A stretch of DNA of 18,053 nt from Methylocystaceae bacterium (GTDB lineage: Bacteria > Pseudomonadota > Alphaproteobacteria > Rhizobiales > Beijerinckiaceae), in NCBI GenBank assembly GCA_003152255.1, contig PLZT01000537.1, positions 1-18,053 of the forward strand, given 5' to 3'. The stretch's first letter is position 1, and the number at the start of each line of letters is the position of its first letter. Of this stretch, positions 3,521 to 17,639 are shown in pieces. The translations under genes and the position numbers were made by a program. The notes under the pieces were generated by a model. That model searched no databases and was not told the origin of the DNA. It saw nothing but the letters and a program-made list of their open reading frames with translations.

Positions 3521-3549
3521 TTGCAAAATGAGACGACTGGTCATATTAT
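3521..3549 (+). promoter_or_regulatory. Promoter of the TetR gene with operator O1 in its spacer
   Basis: TTGCAA (3521-3526) and TATTAT (3544-3549) are separated by exactly 17 bp. Transcription would be expected about 7 nt beyond the -10, at the A of the ATG (3556), and no ribosome-binding site precedes that ATG, so the mRNA is probably leaderless. The 17-nt motif AGACGACTGGTCATATT (3531-3547) fills the spacer and overlaps the -10. It recurs with two changes at 4170-4186. A repressor bound here would block polymerase, consistent with autoregulation. Confidence 0.65.
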
Positions 3550-3555
3550 CGCGCT

Positions 3556-4149
3556 ATGAGCAGGCGCGACGTCAAAGAACTTCGAGAAAAACTCCTAGAT
3601 CAAGGTGTGGTTCTGCTGATGGAGCAGGGCTATCACGGCACGGGTCTTCAGGAGCTGGTGCAGCGCGTCGGGATGCCGAAAGGGTCATTTTACAATTATT
3701 TCCCGAGCAAAGAGGCGTTCAGCGCCGAGGTCGTCAAGCACTACATCGAGCCGTTCATCACGCAGCTTGACAGTCATCTGCAGCGCCACGACGTGAACGC
3801 CGAAACGGCGTTGAAGGATTATTTCAAAGAGCTGATCGAGGAGACCGAGCGCCGCGATTTCAAAGGTGGTTGTCTGCTCGGCAATCTGATCGGCGAAATC
3901 GGCGACACGAGCGACCTCTGCCAGACCTCCTTGCGCGAAGCCGTGCACCGCTATCGCGACAAGCTGCAAGAGGGACTGGCCCGCGCGCAACAGGAGGGCA
4001 GTTTCCGCAAGGATTTGGACGCGAAAGACATGGCCGATTTTCTCGTCAATGTCTGGCAGGGCGCGTTGCTACGCATGAAGATCGAGCGGTCCGTGCGCCC
4101 GCTGATCCAATTCTGTGACTTCCTGCTCAACGGCTATTTCAAAGCGTGA
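3556..4149 (+). CDS. TetR-family repressor, NemR-like (Cys106/Lys175)
   Basis: A 197-residue protein. The N-terminal TetR helix-turn-helix is at about residues 29-50 (TGLQELVQRVGMPKGSFYNYF). The ligand domain holds the segment DFKGGCLLGNL with Cys106, a second Cys122, and LLRMK ending at Lys175. The E. coli repressor NemR senses hypochlorite, methylglyoxal and other electrophiles through Cys106 with Lys175. Both positions, and the length, match here, so a NemR/AcuR-type sensor of reactive electrophiles or oxidants is likely. The start is the only sensible ATG and appears leaderless. Likely targets are its own promoter (O1) and the mtoX operon (O2, 20 bp past its stop). The actual inducer is unknown; products of methanethiol oxidation such as formaldehyde and H2O2 are candidates by inference. 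Confidence 0.85.
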   Translation: MSRRDVKELREKLLDQGVVLLMEQGYHGTGLQELVQRVGMPKGSFYNYFPSKEAFSAEVVKHYIEPFITQLDSHLQRHDVNAETALKDYFKELIEETERRDFKGGCLLGNLIGEIGDTSDLCQTSLREAVHRYRDKLQEGLARAQQEGSFRKDLDAKDMADFLVNVWQGALLRMKIERSVRPLIQFCDFLLNGYFKA

Positions 4150-4169
4150 GCTTTATTTTCGCCAGCTCA

Positions 4170-4186
4170 AGACGACCGGTCATTTT
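4170..4186 (+). promoter_or_regulatory. Operator O2 upstream of the DUF4242-mtoX operon
   Basis: AGACGACCGGTCATTTT matches the O1 motif at 3531-3547 at 15 of 17 positions. It contains the perfect palindrome GACCGGTC (4174-4181), a core typical of NemR/TetR-type boxes. It ends 30 bp before the ATG at 4217. No strong -35/-10 pair could be assigned around it; CATTTT at 4181-4186 is a weak -10 candidate. Confidence 0.65.
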
Positions 4187-4216
4187 CCGACCATTCAAAG
4201 GCAAGCGAGGGACAAA

Positions 4217-4486
4217 ATGCCGAAATACCTCATCGAACGCGAAATACCGGGCGCGGCCAAAATGTCCGCTTCGGACTTACGGGCGATCTCGCAACGCTCC
4301 TGCGCGGTCATCCGAAATCTCGGTCCCGACGTGCAGTGGGTGGAGAGCTTCGTCACGGATGACAAAGTCTATTGCATTTACATCGCATCGGACGCGGAAA
4401 TCATCCGAAAGCACGCGGAGCAAGGCGGCTTTCCGGCCAATCGCATCAGCGAAATCAAGGGGATTATCGATCCCGCCACCGCTTGA
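4217..4486 (+). CDS. DUF4242 (nickel-binding SCO4226-like) small protein
   Basis: An 89-residue protein with ribosome-binding site GAGGGA just upstream. It begins MPKYLIEREIPGA, and the order of the pieces SDLRAISQRSCAVIRNLG, VQWVESFVTDDKVYCIY, and AEIIRKHAEQGGFPANRI follows DUF4242. This family folds as a ferredoxin-like dimer; the Streptomyces member SCO4226 binds nickel. Its role beside methanethiol oxidase is not known. It has no signal peptide, so it acts in the cytoplasm. It precedes mtoX by 28 bp on the same strand and is probably the first gene of the operon under O2. Two cysteines (in QRSC and VYC) and His at HAEQGG are possible metal ligands. Confidence 0.85.
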   Translation: MPKYLIEREIPGAAKMSASDLRAISQRSCAVIRNLGPDVQWVESFVTDDKVYCIYIASDAEIIRKHAEQGGFPANRISEIKGIIDPATA

Positions 4487-4514
4487 TCGAACACAAAAAA
4501 AGAGGGAGAGAGAC

Positions 4515-5831
4515 ATGAGGCCTATAACCGAAAAACGCGCGCCGAAGGCGCTTGCCACGCTTGGCTTATGCCTTCTCGCGGGCGCTTTTTCCAGCGCCGC
4601 CGTAGTGCCGGCGCGGGCAGACGAGACCTGCAACTCGCCCTTCATGACCGGACTGATCAAAGGGCAAGAACAATATCTCCATGTTTGGACGCTCGGCGAA
4701 AAGGGCGTCGGGGACGAGTCCTACAAGCTGGTGACGATCGACGTCATTCCGGGTTCTTCGACCTATGGAAAAGTGACCCATACGATCTCCGTCGGCGGGC
4801 GCGGCGAGGCGCATCACATGGGCTTCACCGACGATCGCAAATATCTTTGGGCCGGCCGCCTCGACGACAGCAAGATCTTCATCTTCGACGTCGGCTCCGA
4901 TCCGAGCACACCGAAACTCGTCAAGACCATCGACAATTTGGCGGAAAGCACTGGCTTCGTCGGGCCGCACACATTCTACGCCCTGCCCGGTCGCATGCTC
5001 GTGCAAGCGTTGTCGAACAAGAAGGACCATGGCGGCGCGACGAGCCTCATCACTTACAACAACGCCGGCGATCTCGTCGTCACCACGCCGATGCCTCTCG
5101 ATAACGGCGGCGACGGCTATGGTTACGACATCGCCATCAACCCCGGCCAGAACCGAATGCTCACATCGAGCTTCACCGGCTGGACCAACTACATGATGGA
5201 CCTGTCGCAGCTCATCCAAGACAGCGTAGCCATGAAGAACTTTGGAAACACCATGGTCCTGTGGGATCTGAAGGCGATGAAGCCCGAAAAGGTGTTTTCC
5301 GTTCCCGGCGCGCCGCTGGAAATCCGTTGGGCGCTGAAGCCCGGCGCCGATTGGGCGATCACCGCCGGCGCGCTCACGTCAAAACTCTATCTGGTGAAGC
5401 AGGACGAGAACCATCAGTGGCAGGCGAAGCCCGTGGCGGATATCGGCGATCCGTCGAAGATTCCGCTGCCTGTCGACATCTCGATTTCGTCGGACGCGTC
5501 GTCTCTGTGGGTCAACACCTTCATGGATGGAACCGCGCGGCTGTTCGATCTGACGAACCCCGAAGTTCCCAAGCAGGTCTATTCGAAGAAGATCGGCGCG
5601 CAGGTCAATATGGTCTCGCAGAGCTGGGACGGAAAGCGCGTCTATTTCACGTCCTCGCTGCTCGCCAATTGGGACAAGAAGGGCGTCGACAACGAGCAGT
5701 TTTTGAAAGGCTATTCCTGGGACGGCAAGGAGTTGAAAGAGGATTTCGTAGTCGACTTCCACAAGGAAGGGCTTGGACGCGCGCATCACATGAAATTCAC
5801 CGCGCGGGCTCAGAAGGCGGAATTGCGGTGA
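4515..5831 (+). CDS. mtoX: Methanethiol oxidase (SBP56 / selenium-binding protein family)
   Basis: A 438-residue periplasmic enzyme of the copper-dependent methanethiol oxidase family, converting CH3SH with O2 and water to formaldehyde, H2S and H2O2. The ATG at 4515 follows an AGAGGGAGAG ribosome-binding site and gives a Sec signal peptide (cleavage near ARA35/D36). The body is the beta-propeller SBP56 domain with its conserved histidine motifs: GEAHHMGF (His100/101), GPHTFYALPG (His152) and the C-terminal GRAHHMKF (His424/425), plus TSSLLANWD. The frame is open further upstream, but that overlaps the DUF4242 gene and is not coding. Only one cysteine remains in the mature N-terminus. The following sco and mauG-like genes are the partners known for bacterial mtoX, and the stop overlaps the sco start (GTGA). 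Confidence 0.93.
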   Translation: MRPITEKRAPKALATLGLCLLAGAFSSAAVVPARADETCNSPFMTGLIKGQEQYLHVWTLGEKGVGDESYKLVTIDVIPGSSTYGKVTHTISVGGRGEAHHMGFTDDRKYLWAGRLDDSKIFIFDVGSDPSTPKLVKTIDNLAESTGFVGPHTFYALPGRMLVQALSNKKDHGGATSLITYNNAGDLVVTTPMPLDNGGDGYGYDIAINPGQNRMLTSSFTGWTNYMMDLSQLIQDSVAMKNFGNTMVLWDLKAMKPEKVFSVPGAPLEIRWALKPGADWAITAGALTSKLYLVKQDENHQWQAKPVADIGDPSKIPLPVDISISSDASSLWVNTFMDGTARLFDLTNPEVPKQVYSKKIGAQVNMVSQSWDGKRVYFTSSLLANWDKKGVDNEQFLKGYSWDGKELKEDFVVDFHKEGLGRAHHMKFTARAQKAELR

Positions 5832-6541
5832 CCGCGCCACGCATGAAAACGAAGGGCGCGTTTGCGCCTTTCGCCGCCTTCTCCCTCGCGTTGACGCTCG
5901 CGACCGCGCCGGCTCTGGGCGCGGAAACACCGACTCCGACGGTCTCGAACCTGCCGGCGCCCGGAACATACGCGCTCCAGCGCATCCAACGCATTCCCGA
6001 AGCGCAATTGTTGGATGCGGACGATAGACCAATGGCGCTCTCCATTGCCACGCGCGGCGCGATAACCGCGCTCGCCTTCTTCTATGGTCATTGCGTCGAC
6101 CCCGCGGGCTGTCCCGTCGCATGGTCGGCGTTCGAAGCATTGCAAAAGGAGGCGGCGAGCGATCCGCTTTTGCGCGGTCGGCTGAGACTGGTGTTCGTCA
6201 GCCTCGATCCGACGCACGACACGCCGACGGTGATGCGCTTGTTGCAAAAATCCGAGAACGCCGAGACGCTCCCGCCATGGCGATTTTTGACAAGCCGTTC
6301 GCAGAGCGATCTCGCGCCGCTCCTGGCGAACATGGGCCAGGACATCGCCTTCGAAACCGACGCGGGCGGAAAACGCACGGGCGTCGTCAATCACATGCTG
6401 AAGGTGTTTTTGATCGACCCAGACGGATGGGCGCGGGAAATCTACACCACCGCTTTTCTCTCCACAGACAGTCTTCTCAACGATGCGCGCACGCTCGCCA
6501 TGGCGCATCCCGAGGCGAGCAATCGAAGCGGGGCGCGGTGA
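5828..6541 (+). CDS. Sco1/SenC-type copper chaperone with CX5C motif
   Basis: A 237-residue protein. The GTG at 5828 is preferred because AGAAGGCGG lies 7 nt upstream and the start overlaps the mtoX stop as GTGA (translational coupling); the ATG at 5843 has no ribosome-binding site. A signal peptide covers ~residues 6-32 (cleavage near ALGAE). The thioredoxin-like Sco domain contains FVSLDPTHDTP, NHMLKVFLIDPDG with the copper-ligand His189, and the cysteines Cys89 and Cys95. Sco proteins normally have CxxxCP; here it is C-VDPAG-CP, two residues longer. It probably loads copper onto methanethiol oxidase in the periplasm. Sco genes are known neighbours of mtoX. Confidence 0.88.
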   Translation: MTAPRMKTKGAFAPFAAFSLALTLATAPALGAETPTPTVSNLPAPGTYALQRIQRIPEAQLLDADDRPMALSIATRGAITALAFFYGHCVDPAGCPVAWSAFEALQKEAASDPLLRGRLRLVFVSLDPTHDTPTVMRLLQKSENAETLPPWRFLTSRSQSDLAPLLANMGQDIAFETDAGGKRTGVVNHMLKVFLIDPDGWAREIYTTAFLSTDSLLNDARTLAMAHPEASNRSGAR

Positions 6542-6542
6542 C

Positions 6543-7619
6543 ATGCGCGCGGCGACGACGCGAGCAGTGACGGCCTTGGCGCTCGCCTCGGCGTTGTGCG
6601 CGTTTGGAGAAACAATGGCGCAGGAGCAGGCGAAGGCGCCGCTCGGCTTGCCGCCCGTTCCGCCCGCCATCGCCGGATCGCCCGCGATGCAACGCCTCGG
6701 CGAGCGCCTCTTTTTTGACCGCGGCCTTTCGGCCAACAACACGCTCTCCTGCGCCATGTGCCACATACCCACGCAAGGCTATACATCCAACCAAAGCGCG
6801 CTCTCCATAGGCTTGCAGGGCCGTTCGCTGCGACGCAATGCGCCGACCCTTTACAATGTCGTGTTCAAGAAATTCCTCTTTCACGATGGCCGCGAGACGG
6901 ACCTCGCGGCGCAAGTGTGGGGGCCATTGCTCGCCGCCGATGAGATGGGCAATCCGGCGATCGGGCCGCTGCTCGATCGATTGCGCGCCGACACCATATA
7001 CGGGCCAGCCTTTTCCGCCGCTTTCCCCGGCGAGGGCGTTTCGATGACGACGCTCGGCCGCGCCATCGCTGCTTACGAAGCGACGCTGCTTAAGGGTGAC
7101 AGCCGCGTCGACCGCGCGATGTTCGGCGGCGACAAAAGCGCGCTCACGCCGCTCGAATGGCGCGGCTATGACGTTTTCGTCCACAAGGGAGGCTGCGTTT
7201 CCTGCCACACGATCGGCGACGACACCGCGTTGTTCACCGACCAGTCCTGGCACAACACGGGCATCGCTTTCGCGGCCCGAATGTCCGCGACGACGAGGGT
7301 CGAACTGGCGCCCGGCGTCTTCCAAAATGTTCGACTGTCCGACGTCGGCCTATCCGCACCGACGGTAAAAAATGATCTCGGACGCTTCGAGATCACCGGC
7401 AAGCCCGAAGATCGCTGGGCCTACACGACGCCGACACTGCGCGCCTTGAAAGTGACTTGGCCCTACATGCACGACGGCACCTTCAAGAGTCTCGAGGAGG
7501 TCGTCGACTTTTATGATCGCGGCGGCGAACCAAACCCCACGCTCGACCCGAAAATCAACCCGCTCGGCCTCAGCAGCGACGAGAAGGAAGCGCTCGTCGC
7601 CTTCCTTGCGGCGTTATGA
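6543..7619 (+). CDS. MauG-like di-heme cytochrome c peroxidase family protein
   Basis: A 358-residue protein, one base after the sco stop. A signal peptide is present (cleavage near TMAQE). Two c-type heme sites are visible, CAMCH (Cys70-His74) and CVSCH (Cys218-His222). The family motifs ERLFFDRGLS, NAPTLYNV, FHDGRETDLAAQVWGPL and near the end TPTLRALKVTWPYMHDGTFKSLEE belong to the MauG / bacterial cytochrome c peroxidase family. MauG matures tryptophan-derived cofactors in methylamine dehydrogenase. In mtoX operons the homologue is thought to modify or mature methanethiol oxidase, or possibly to remove its H2O2. No clear terminator follows. Confidence 0.9.
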   Translation: MRAATTRAVTALALASALCAFGETMAQEQAKAPLGLPPVPPAIAGSPAMQRLGERLFFDRGLSANNTLSCAMCHIPTQGYTSNQSALSIGLQGRSLRRNAPTLYNVVFKKFLFHDGRETDLAAQVWGPLLAADEMGNPAIGPLLDRLRADTIYGPAFSAAFPGEGVSMTTLGRAIAAYEATLLKGDSRVDRAMFGGDKSALTPLEWRGYDVFVHKGGCVSCHTIGDDTALFTDQSWHNTGIAFAARMSATTRVELAPGVFQNVRLSDVGLSAPTVKNDLGRFEITGKPEDRWAYTTPTLRALKVTWPYMHDGTFKSLEEVVDFYDRGGEPNPTLDPKINPLGLSSDEKEALVAFLAAL

Positions 7620-15270: not shown

Positions 15271-15403
15271 GGTCGAAATCAGACACAAGTGGGCGCCGTC
15301 TTGCGCGCAGCCGGGACGCAGGTCGGCAGTTCTGTTTGCGGATTTGAAGAAGACCCATTAAGCGTCAAGCCTATAGCGTGTGCCACAGCCGAATTATGAA
15401 ATG

Positions 15404-15637
15404 GCGCCCCTCGTCGAGCACGTGCAGCAGTATGTTGAACACGTCCGGGTGCGCCTTTTCTATTTCGTCGAACAGCAGCACCTGGTAGGGTCTGCGCCGC
15501 ACGGCCTCGGTGAGCGCGCCGCCCTCCTCGTAGCCGACATAACCGGTGGGGGCGCCGATCAACCGCGCCACTGAATGTTTCTCTATATATTCCGACATGT
15601 CGAGGCGAACCATCGCCGTCTCGTCGTCGAACAGGAA
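15404..15637 (-). pseudogene. Internal fragment of a ClpB/ClpA-type ATPase gene
   Basis: On the minus strand the frame reads [17 protein letters not shown], then [18 protein letters not shown] and [18 protein letters not shown] (Walker B), ending at LDEGR. That is the middle of the second AAA+ domain of a Clp chaperone (ClpB/ClpK/ClpA type). There is no start, Walker A or end. It is fused on one side to an IS630 transposase fragment and on the other to unrelated sequence. Confidence 0.85.
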
Positions 15638-15642
15638 GCTCC

Positions 15643-16118
15643 TTGTGCGGCTTCACTTCATGCTGGTTGAGGATCTTGCACAGCGTGCCCTGCGCCAGAT
15701 TGGCGAGGTAGGCGTGTCCCGCCGCCGGCCCATGCTCACGCGAATAGCGCGCCAGCAGCCGCGTCGTCCACAATTCATCCGCGTAGCCAAGCTCATTCGC
15801 TTTACGACACGCGAGCGATACCAGCCAGCTTTTGGCTTCGTCCGTAATCCTGCGCTCCCTGCCGGGTCTGGGGAGATCGGAGAGCGCCCCCAACGGACCA
15901 AGGGCCACGGCTTTCTCGACACAACGCTGCACGGTTTGATGATGCAGCCCCAAGGCTTGGCCCACCGCGAAGAAGCACGGATCATCCCGATAGGCGAGCA
16001 GAATGCGCGCCCGCTCGACGCGACCTGCAGGCTCCGTGCGCGAGCGTGCGATCATCGTCAATTGCGACAACTCTTCATCGTTGATCACCAGCGCAAGCGC
16101 CTGTCGCCACGTAACCAT
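15643..16118 (-). mobile_element. IS630-family transposase, N-terminal fragment
   Basis: The ATG at 16118 starts MVTWRQALALVINDEELSQL. The helix-turn-helix region (AVGQALGLHHQTVQRCVEKAVA) and GPLGALSDLPRPGRERRITDEA are characteristic of IS630/Tc1-mariner transposases of the IS630 type, as is [14 protein letters not shown] at the end. The match stops after about 158 residues; normally the catalytic DDE domain follows. It is cut by the ClpB-type fragment at 15638-15643. Not functional. Confidence 0.85.
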
Positions 16119-16523: not shown

Positions 16524-16799
16524 CTACTTGATGCTCGCCGGATAACCAGCTTCCGCTGTTGCCCTAATCAGCGCGGCGGCATTGACCTTGTCGGGATCGA
16601 AAGTCACCGTCGCCGTCTTCGCGTCGAGATCAACTTTCACACCGGCCACGCCCTGTACCTTTTCGAGCGCCTTCCTGACCGTGATCGGGCAGACGGTGCA
16701 GGTCATGTTTTTCACGTCGAGGGTGACGGTTTGCGGAGCGCCCGCCAGTGCCGCGAGCGGCGATAGGGCGAGCGCGGTGGCAACCAATAATCGTCGCAT
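16524..16799 (-). CDS. merP: Periplasmic mercury-binding protein MerP
   Basis: 91 residues; ATG at 16799 with AAAGGAAC upstream. A signal peptide (RRLLVATALALSPLAALA) precedes a heavy-metal-associated domain with VKNMTCTVCPITVRKALEKV: the Hg-binding pair in TCTVC, equivalent to GMTCxxC. The domain ends with AALIRATAEAGYPASIK as in MerP. It scavenges Hg2+ in the periplasm and passes it to MerT, whose gene lies 14 bp upstream. Confidence 0.92.
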   Translation of the reverse strand: MRRLLVATALALSPLAALAGAPQTVTLDVKNMTCTVCPITVRKALEKVQGVAGVKVDLDAKTATVTFDPDKVNAAALIRATAEAGYPASIK

Positions 16800-16813
16800 G
16801 GCGAAGGTTCCTT

Positions 16814-17161
16814 TCAGTAGAATAGCGGCGCAAGCCACGGGACGACGAGAAGGCCGAGTAGCGGCACGGCGGTTATCCAGAACGTCAGTCGCTGGCGCTT
16901 GGCCGTTCGTGGAGCAGCGCAAAGCGCGCCGGGCATACAGACTTGCGGGACGAGGTAGAGGCGGCGGAACGCCAAGCCGAGGAAGACTAACGTCAAGCCT
17001 ATGAAGAGCGGACGGTACGGCTCAAGCGCCGTCAAATTGGCGATCCACGTTCCGCCGACGCCGAGCGCGAGCAGCACGAGCGGCCCGACGCAGCAGAGAG
17101 ACGCGCCAACAGCGGCTGCCGCGCCAGCAATCAGTGAGGTTTTTGCGCTCAGTCTGGCCAT
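16814..17161 (-). CDS. merT: Mercury transporter MerT
   Basis: 115 residues; the ATG at 17161 matches the family start and lies just downstream of the mer promoter. Three hydrophobic helices are visible. The first carries GASLCCVGPLVLLALGVGGTW with the paired cysteines that accept Hg2+ from MerP, and the loop between helices 2 and 3 has the second cysteine set (VCMPGALC). It moves mercuric ions into the cytoplasm, where MerA would normally reduce them; no merA is present here. Confidence 0.92.
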   Translation of the reverse strand: MARLSAKTSLIAGAAAAVGASLCCVGPLVLLALGVGGTWIANLTALEPYRPLFIGLTLVFLGLAFRRLYLVPQVCMPGALCAAPRTAKRQRLTFWITAVPLLGLLVVPWLAPLFY

Positions 17162-17193
17162 CTTGATCCTTCTGGATTTGTCCAGCGCCGCTA

Positions 17194-17224
17194 ATCTAAA
17201 CTCCGTAGTATGGTACGGACTCAA
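17194..17224 (-). promoter_or_regulatory. mer operator-promoter (PmerT)
   Basis: On the minus strand TTGAGT (-35, 17224-17219) and TTAGAT (-10, 17199-17194) are separated by 19 bp (17200-17218), the unusually long spacer typical of MerR-activated promoters. The MerR dyad lies between and over them: ACTCCGTA (17200-17207) and TACGGACT (17214-17221), 7 of 8 positions symmetric. Mercury-bound MerR would untwist it to start merT transcription. merR starts 8 bp away on the other strand. Confidence 0.9.
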
Positions 17225-17231
17225 GAGCGAA

Positions 17232-17639
17232 ATGATGCAGCATGCAATCACGATTGGACGGCTGGCGGCGACGGCGGGCGTCAGTGTCGAAACCATCCGC
17301 TACTATCAGCGGCGCGGCTTGCTCGACGAACCGCGCAAGCCGTTTCGCGGCTACCGGCATTATCCCGCCGACATGGCGAAGCGCGTCCGCTTCATCAAGC
17401 GGGCGCAGGCTCTAGGATTCACACTGGAAGAAATCGTTAGCCTCTTGCGGCTGGACGGCGCGGATTGTTGCACCGACACGCGTGAGCTGGCGGCGCATAA
17501 GGTCGCCTTGATCGAGCGGAAGTTGCTCGACCTTGCGGCGATGCGCGACGCACTCTCGGCGCTGGTGCGCCAATGCGAGACGGGGCAGGCCGAAGGGTTA
17601 TGCCCGATCATTTCCGTTCTGGCGCAGGACGGCGAATAG
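17232..17639 (+). CDS. merR: Mercury-responsive regulator MerR
   Basis: 135 residues from the ATG at 17232 (a second ATG follows at once). The N-terminal MerR winged helix is clear (TIGRLAATAGVSVETIRYYQ, then GYRHYPADMAKRVRFI). Three Hg-binding cysteines lie at Cys80, Cys115 and Cys124, spaced exactly like Cys82, Cys117 and Cys126 of the Tn501 protein, with the end LCPIISVL. It is therefore a true Hg2+ sensor and not another MerR type. It represses and activates the divergent merTP promoter. Sequence upstream of 17232 is open but lies in the operator and merT. Confidence 0.93.
   Translation: MMQHAITIGRLAATAGVSVETIRYYQRRGLLDEPRKPFRGYRHYPADMAKRVRFIKRAQALGFTLEEIVSLLRLDGADCCTDTRELAAHKVALIERKLLDLAAMRDALSALVRQCETGQAEGLCPIISVLAQDGE

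Follow-up and report, generated by a model that had tools for sequence, protein, structure and literature searches.

Methanethiol oxidase, MtoX, is encoded in Hyphomicrobium sp. VS and Ruegeria pomeroyi as part of an mtoX-sco-mauG operon, and the mtoX regulator of Ruegeria is of the IclR type, according to PMC5739008, which also reports a Methylocystis strain with mtoX that degrades methanethiol. The same three-gene core lies in the window analysed here, a contig of 18,053 nucleotides (nt) from a Methylocystaceae bacterium (PLZT01000537.1), yet the regulator gene in front of it encodes a TetR protein of the NemR fold. Compared with the operon described in PMC5739008, the window also adds a leading gene for a DUF4242 protein and two fixed operators, O1 and O2 (Table 1). 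An earlier note on this DNA had claimed this layout, i.e., TetR, DUF4242 as the first gene and the mtoX-sco-mauG core, and gene calls and family searches bear it out at 3531-7619. Methanethiol is reported to inhibit several methanotrophs (PMC9003020), and knowing the switch for its breakdown in these organisms links the methane and volatile-sulfur cycles. All positions of features are window coordinates on the + strand, and related loci and genomes carry labels beginning with L and G, respectively.

With the NemR-NemA system of Escherichia coli, the window shares the repressor fold, a Cys106 in a GCL motif, Lys175 and the position of the TetR gene ahead of its target. However, the window repressor is without Cys21 and Cys116 of NemR, no nemA lies beside it (its neighbours are DUF4242-mtoX or, in some relatives, genes for a sulfide:quinone oxidoreductase (SQR)-like protein), and mtoX or the SQR-like gene would be its target. 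The AcuR-AcuI-DddL system of Rhodobacter sphaeroides, as presented in PMC3017554, likewise joins a TetR relative, an operator overlapping the regulator's own promoter and a volatile-sulfur pathway, but the AcuR operator (TAATAGAC-n6-GTCTATTA) is unlike O1 and O2. We considered and rejected the identification of the window repressor as AcuR itself because of this different operator and a score of 156.5 bits against a cut-off of 247 for the AcuR model NF051457.

The earlier note had regarded a TetR gene beside mtoX as new, which agrees with zero whole-word occurrences of TetR in the main text of PMC5739008, PMC10936201, PMC9003020 and PMC6548844. Among the matches listed, no title or abstract start names a TetR regulator of mtoX, in a search outside which most subscription journals fall. 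The reactive-sulfur sensors that appear in such titles and abstract starts belong to other families, e.g., ArsR, MarR, OxyR and PerR, and the term "TetR family" was not found among the matches listed for reactive-sulfur sensor papers.

We propose, at a probability of about 0.5, that the mtoX-sco-mauG operon of this Methylocystis-type methanotroph is under the control of its own TetR repressor, which is released by sulfur stress. A repressor dimer would occupy O1, within the promoter spacer of its own gene, and O2, just ahead of the first enzyme gene, and would thereby block its own transcription as well as that of DUF4242-mtoX-sco-mauG. Rising sulfur stress, whether from methanethiol itself or from sulfide or sulfane sulfur that it yields, would release the repressor: the compound would enter the ligand pocket or else modify Cys106, with Lys175 as a possible partner. 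The enzymes would then remove methanethiol, and expression would fall as the signal is consumed. It is from sequence-based evidence (genes, operators, their conservation, the restriction of the operator motif in 18 genomes, unlinked mtoX operators and an exchange of targets) that we infer that the repressor binds DNA and represses, what it senses and what part Cys106 plays.

Table 1. Features of the mtoX locus in the window
Feature	Position	Strand	Basis
Promoter-like TTGCAA-N17-TATTAT, O1 filling the 17-nt spacer	3521-3549	+	promoter scan
Operator O1 (putative), AGACGACTGGTCATATT, before the TetR gene	3531-3547	+	pattern match
TetR repressor, NemR/AcuR fold family, 197 amino acids	3556-4149	+	family searches, alignment, model
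Operator O2 (putative), AGACGACCGGTCATTTT, between TetR and DUF4242	4170-4186	+	pattern match
DUF4242 (PF14026, SCO4226-like) protein, 89 amino acids, predicted ferredoxin-like fold	4217-4486	+	Pfam, model
mtoX, methanethiol oxidase, SBP56 family	4515-5831	+	NCBIfam NF052453, Pfam
sco (SCO1/SenC), GTG start, overlapping the mtoX stop	5828-6541	+	SCO1-SenC 38.2 bits
mauG-like di-haem cytochrome c peroxidase, two CxxCH motifs	6543-7619	+	CCP_MauG 152.8 bits

Operators at mtoX loci

O1 and O2 are identical at 15 of 17 positions and are the sole two matches in the window (up to 3 mismatches) to a pattern derived from the two sites themselves; shuffled sequences contain 0.09 matches on average, and 0 of 200 reach two. 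The duplicated 17-nt operator that the earlier note had placed before both transcription units is therefore present. Searches of the literature for the operator letters returned unrelated matches only. The promoter-like element around O1 fits the consensus at 9 of 12 positions and is weak when taken alone (two promoter-like sites compared to a shuffle mean of 1.0), and a similar arrangement of an operator inside a promoter recurs, by eye, before the TetR gene in relatives. Since O1 fills the promoter-like spacer, bound repressor would block the polymerase, suggesting autoregulation.

A scan for MtoX gave 170 confirmed loci, and the best 80 of these were analysed. Ten of the 80 (L001-L010) have TetR-DUF4242-mtoX together with both operators, and nine of the ten are labelled Methylocystis or Methylocystaceae (L007 is labelled Alphaproteobacteria only). 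The TetR and DUF4242 genes thus do co-occur with mtoX in relatives, the synteny for which the earlier note had proposed to search. The closest relative by score in this set is L001 from an uncultured Methylocystaceae (G001); the TetR gene of L003 starts with GTG, and in L010 (G010) the locus is whole, although the assembly breaks its TetR gene into two frames. The same ten loci all have an operator match upstream of mtoX, and none of the 70 others does, four of which have less than about 300 nt upstream. Neither this TetR nor DUF4242 has a match in the remaining 70 loci, including eight with less than about 1,100 nt upstream, where the TetR gene could not show. In 22 of 22 related loci taken from the MtoX scan and from whole genomes and read in detail, a relaxed pattern finds an O1-type site before the TetR gene and an O2-type site after it; the second site is degenerate in L131, the first carries one changed base in four SQR loci, and one extra match each appears in L005 and L135.

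These sites are narrowly distributed also on the scale of genomes. The motif GACGACYGGTCRTNT occurs 31 times in 18 whole genomes (one match for the reversed pattern), and the coordinates place all 31 occurrences at the TetR locus, at an mtoX or SQR-like target or at a NemR-type relative. A strict 17-mer, AGACGACCGGTCATATT, is rare (6 of 385 genomes of the class) and does not match Methylocystis rosea, whose O2 ends differently. All six of its loci encode a TetR protein of the same broad type (92-144 bits) with differing further neighbours, suggesting that this operator type predates its use at mtoX. The best single piece of evidence comes from G099, where the genes have parted and the operators stayed with both. 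In this genome, operators at 707423 and 707660 accompany mtoX at 707781. TetR-DUF4242, with a single operator, is found 1.2 Mb from mtoX near 1913400, and those three sites are all the GACGACYGGTCRTNT matches that the genome contains. By the pattern of these sites, a dedicated repressor circuit for mtoX appears well supported.

The two mtoX operators of G099 (L180 5924-6282; L131) are 237 nt apart, and other loci have the TetR gene between them. It looks like the TetR gene was lost from this place.

Repressor distribution and exchange of targets

Among 397 genomes drawn from the family of Methylocystis rosea (G005), the repressor is found at an identity of at least 71% in 21, which are kin so that the counts do not represent independent events. 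The repressor adjoins DUF4242-mtoX-sco-mauG in 14 of the 21 (the contig of G008 ends after mtoX), mtoX without DUF4242 in two (G027 and G605) and DUF4242 alone, with mtoX elsewhere, in one (G099). The other four (G052, G088, G156, G552) have no mtoX but an SQR-like flavoprotein and a DUF1641 protein, and this SQR-like operon lies behind O1/O2-type sites in all four genomes. Its loci as read also include a SufU-like protein (47 bits against a cut-off of 92.5, one scanned), and the best solved relatives of the SQR-like protein are sulfide:quinone oxidoreductases (E 1e-20, one protein compared). In the same kind of draw, mtoX at an identity of at least 83% is present in 18 genomes, i.e., 17 of the 21 repressor genomes plus G010, which with its broken TetR frame stands outside the count of 21. 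Another 22 genomes carry mtoX at 56-72% identity, none of them among the 21. Conversely, the SQR-like protein at an identity of at least 92% occurs in exactly the four repressor genomes without mtoX, and its relatives at 38-42% occur in five other genomes that are absent from the repressor list. The methane monooxygenase gene pmoA is present in 7 of 7 repressor genomes tested and not in two outgroup genomes.

This pattern tentatively suggests that in alphaproteobacterial methanotrophs a NemR-family repressor became a reactive-sulfur sensor that kept its operator and exchanged its target between mtoX, the SQR-type operon and an MtoX-like beta-propeller, though we give this evolutionary account less credence than the control of mtoX itself. 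The exchange of mtoX for an SQR-like target under one operator makes the signal testable, as both versions of the repressor should answer the same sulfur compounds.

Several observations weigh against the proposed control of mtoX or its extension to other targets. Not every close mtoX locus has the circuit: L026, from a metagenome-assembled genome (MAG) labelled Methylocystis sp., encodes an MtoX with 71% identity and is without repressor and operators. In L049 from a Burkholderiales MAG, a different TetR (53 bits to the TetR profile) lies directly before mtoX, and neither DUF4242 nor a match to O1 or O2 was found there. The promoter scan around O2 shows no clear promoter, and O2 may be the operator of a weak second promoter or a roadblock to read-through. 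The strict motif GACGACYGGTCRTNT misses some of the operators that we counted (O1 in the SQR loci as well as O2 in L003 and L131). The SQR-like protein stays below the curated cut-off of its model (NF049943, 248 bits against 525; two of four scanned), so its substrate is not certain, and the three of four SQR-linked repressors placed in a tree of 41 rows (a thinned set of close homologues) form one clade (100/97), so that the exchange of targets may be a single event. The repressor at 52-56% identity, found in seven further genomes (L229-L235), adjoins in 7 of 7 cases a secreted beta-propeller that is weakly like MtoX, with 19-28 bits, 42.7 and 38.5 bits against 650 for the NCBIfam MtoX model (two of seven scanned) and a probability of 96.6% in a profile comparison; one of these genomes, G576, also has mtoX elsewhere. 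Finally, relatives with the same operator adjoin NemA or other genes, which makes the operator and Cys106 uninformative on the signal.

Operator-like sites precede the repressor in L229-L235 and also, as far as the gaps were read, the undescribed beta-propeller. The TetR of L049 (1294-2874) carries a GCL cysteine, and another palindrome, TACCGAACGGTA, lies in its TetR-mtoX gap; this different TetR with its different palindrome suggests that TetR control of mtoX may have arisen on more than one occasion. L060 shows a weak TetR match (24 bits) some 4 kb from mtoX.

Repressor residues and the likely signal

The TetR protein of the window shows the domains TetR_C_13 (73.0 bits) and TetR_N (48.8 bits) and is 28% identical to E. 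coli NemR, whose structure 4yze matches its predicted fold with template modelling (TM) scores of 0.81/0.83 (mean predicted local distance difference test, pLDDT, 84.5; below 50 for residues 109-114). Cys106 and Lys175 align with Cys106 and Lys175 of NemR, as the earlier note had claimed, and all 135 sequences compared have both (that of the window, those of 119 close homologues and 15 from loci, some identical across two sets). In a second comparison of 22 rows, Cys106 is found in 22 and Lys175 in 21. Eight of these rows are regulators with the same operator and different neighbours, of which 8/8 keep Cys106 and 7/8 Lys175 (Arg in L134). Both residues also occur in the solved relatives PA2196, 3knw and 3bru. 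The pair is thus a mark of the family and not diagnostic, and cannot serve as the sign of an electrophile sensor that the earlier note had seen in it. In E. coli NemR, Cys21 and Cys116 are reported as essential for the response to electrophiles, whereas Cys106 and Lys175 are used for that to reactive chlorine (PMC5297802). Positions 21 and 116 hold Leu and Gly throughout our alignment of 135 sequences, which speaks against formaldehyde sensing.

Among the alternatives to release by sulfur stress, the one that would leave the TetR protein a generic regulator standing beside mtoX by chance, without controlling it, can draw on the abundance of TetR genes and the diverse neighbours of this repressor's relatives; it is highly improbable and was rejected on the operator data, i.e., operators before mtoX in all ten loci with this TetR compared to none of the 70 others, and two operators kept by the unlinked mtoX of G099. 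We also regard as unlikely a NemR-like mode of sensing in which Cys106 of the repressor responds to formaldehyde or H2O2, the electrophilic or oxidising products. The NemR-type fold, the invariant Cys106 and Lys175 and a relative that sits beside a true NemA (G085; NemA 455.7 bits, cut-off 403) and has the same operator fit such product sensing, but the missing electrophile cysteines do not, and it would leave the SQR-like gene as alternative target unexplained. Methanotrophs make formaldehyde continuously from methane, which makes it an odd signal in such an organism. Of the product-sensing circuit that the earlier note had envisaged, a dedicated TetR with two operators stands and electrophile sensing is not supported; H2S and H2O2 as products are disputed: three methanethiol oxidases from Rhodobacteraceae yield sulfane sulfur and no H2O2 according to PMC10936201.

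Direct binding of methanethiol by the repressor is a serious rival. The repressor would then bind methanethiol or a close metabolite non-covalently, a substrate induction like that of AcuR by acrylate, with Cys106 having a structural role only. Methanethiol induces mtoX in R. pomeroyi, although the regulator there is of the IclR type (PMC5739008), the best NCBIfam match of the window repressor is the acrylate regulator AcuR (the 156.5 bits below cut-off given above), and Cys106 is kept whatever the target. Still, we consider this alternative improbable, if slightly less so than product sensing, as the SQR-linked orthologues in genomes free of mtoX stay unexplained unless the pocket also takes sulfide. 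For the preferred reading, release by sulfur stress, the exchange of targets is the informative observation: mtoX and the SQR-type enzyme share sulfide or sulfane sulfur, and the exchange of one for the other favours sulfide, sulfane sulfur or methanethiol over formaldehyde as the signal. In Methylophaga thiooxydans, sqrB and the persulfide dioxygenase gene pdo are named in a legend of PMC6548844 that deals with its two mtoX clusters. Cys106 is the sole one of the repressor's three cysteines kept in every relative aligned, and sulfane sulfur, being an electrophile, could modify this residue if it is reactive.

A two-cysteine sensor of Cys106 and Cys122 was considered and dropped, because Cys122 is replaced by Ala in 10 of the 119 close homologues and in L227, which has a full mtoX locus. 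Cys122 is present in all 11 mtoX-linked and all three SQR-linked rows of the 135-sequence alignment.

The DUF4242 protein

The first gene of the operon matches PF14026 (formerly DUF4242) with 94.6 bits at a gathering cut-off of 28.5, and its predicted fold is closest to the nickel-binding protein SCO4226 of Streptomyces (4oi6, TM 0.78/0.85), which belongs to the same Pfam family (PMC4186839; PDB 4oi3 and 4oi6). However, the SCO4226 nickel ligands Glu74 and His76 correspond to Arg76 and Ser78 in the window protein (in a weak alignment, E 0.036), and the NCBIfam SCO4226 model gives 12 bits against a cut-off of 125, so that a nickel role is not supported. Cys53 and His66 are invariant in 23 aligned proteins. 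The gene is optional to the mtoX locus, as shown by its absence beside mtoX in G027 and G605. Of the accessory part that the earlier note had seen in it, the position as first gene of the operon holds, but the gene is optional there and its domain occurs in many unrelated places. In the ten genomes of L001-L010, DUF4242 is present once, at this locus, in nine and twice in G002, while among 149 family genomes it is found in 22, 19 of which are without this repressor at an identity of at least 77%. Its neighbours on plasmids differ in every record without a common theme (5 of 12 records examined). The match to the second DUF4242 of G002 (Methylocystis suflitae; L181 4181-4459) crosses a stop codon, and by eye this copy lies upstream of pmoC- and pmoA-like genes.

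Enzyme genes and surroundings

The MtoX protein of the window exceeds the curated equivalog cut-off of its model (NF052453, 738.5 bits against 650; SBP56 144 bits), and its gene is followed by sco and mauG as in the MtoX operon. Its N terminus resembles a signal peptide by eye. His100, His101, His152 and His424 are invariant in an alignment of nine MtoX proteins and, with the numbers matched by motif, probably correspond to the proposed copper-ligand histidines 89, 90, 140 and 412 of Hyphomicrobium sp. VS MtoX (PMC5739008). For the MauG-like protein, the MbnH model gives a higher score (189 bits) than the MauG model (171 bits), both below cut-off. The Sco protein has a C-x5-CP spacing, as do 74 of 76 mtoX-linked Sco proteins; the usual Sco motif is CxxxC.

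Further along the window, 16527-17639 holds a heavy-metal-associated (HMA) gene and a MerR regulator with, by eye, a MerT-like membrane protein between them. A piece at 12-428 looks by eye like an IS256-type transposase (Pfam gave no match), and an HTH_32 protein at 15279-16118 resembles a transposase remnant, so that the contig seems to hold debris of mobile elements.

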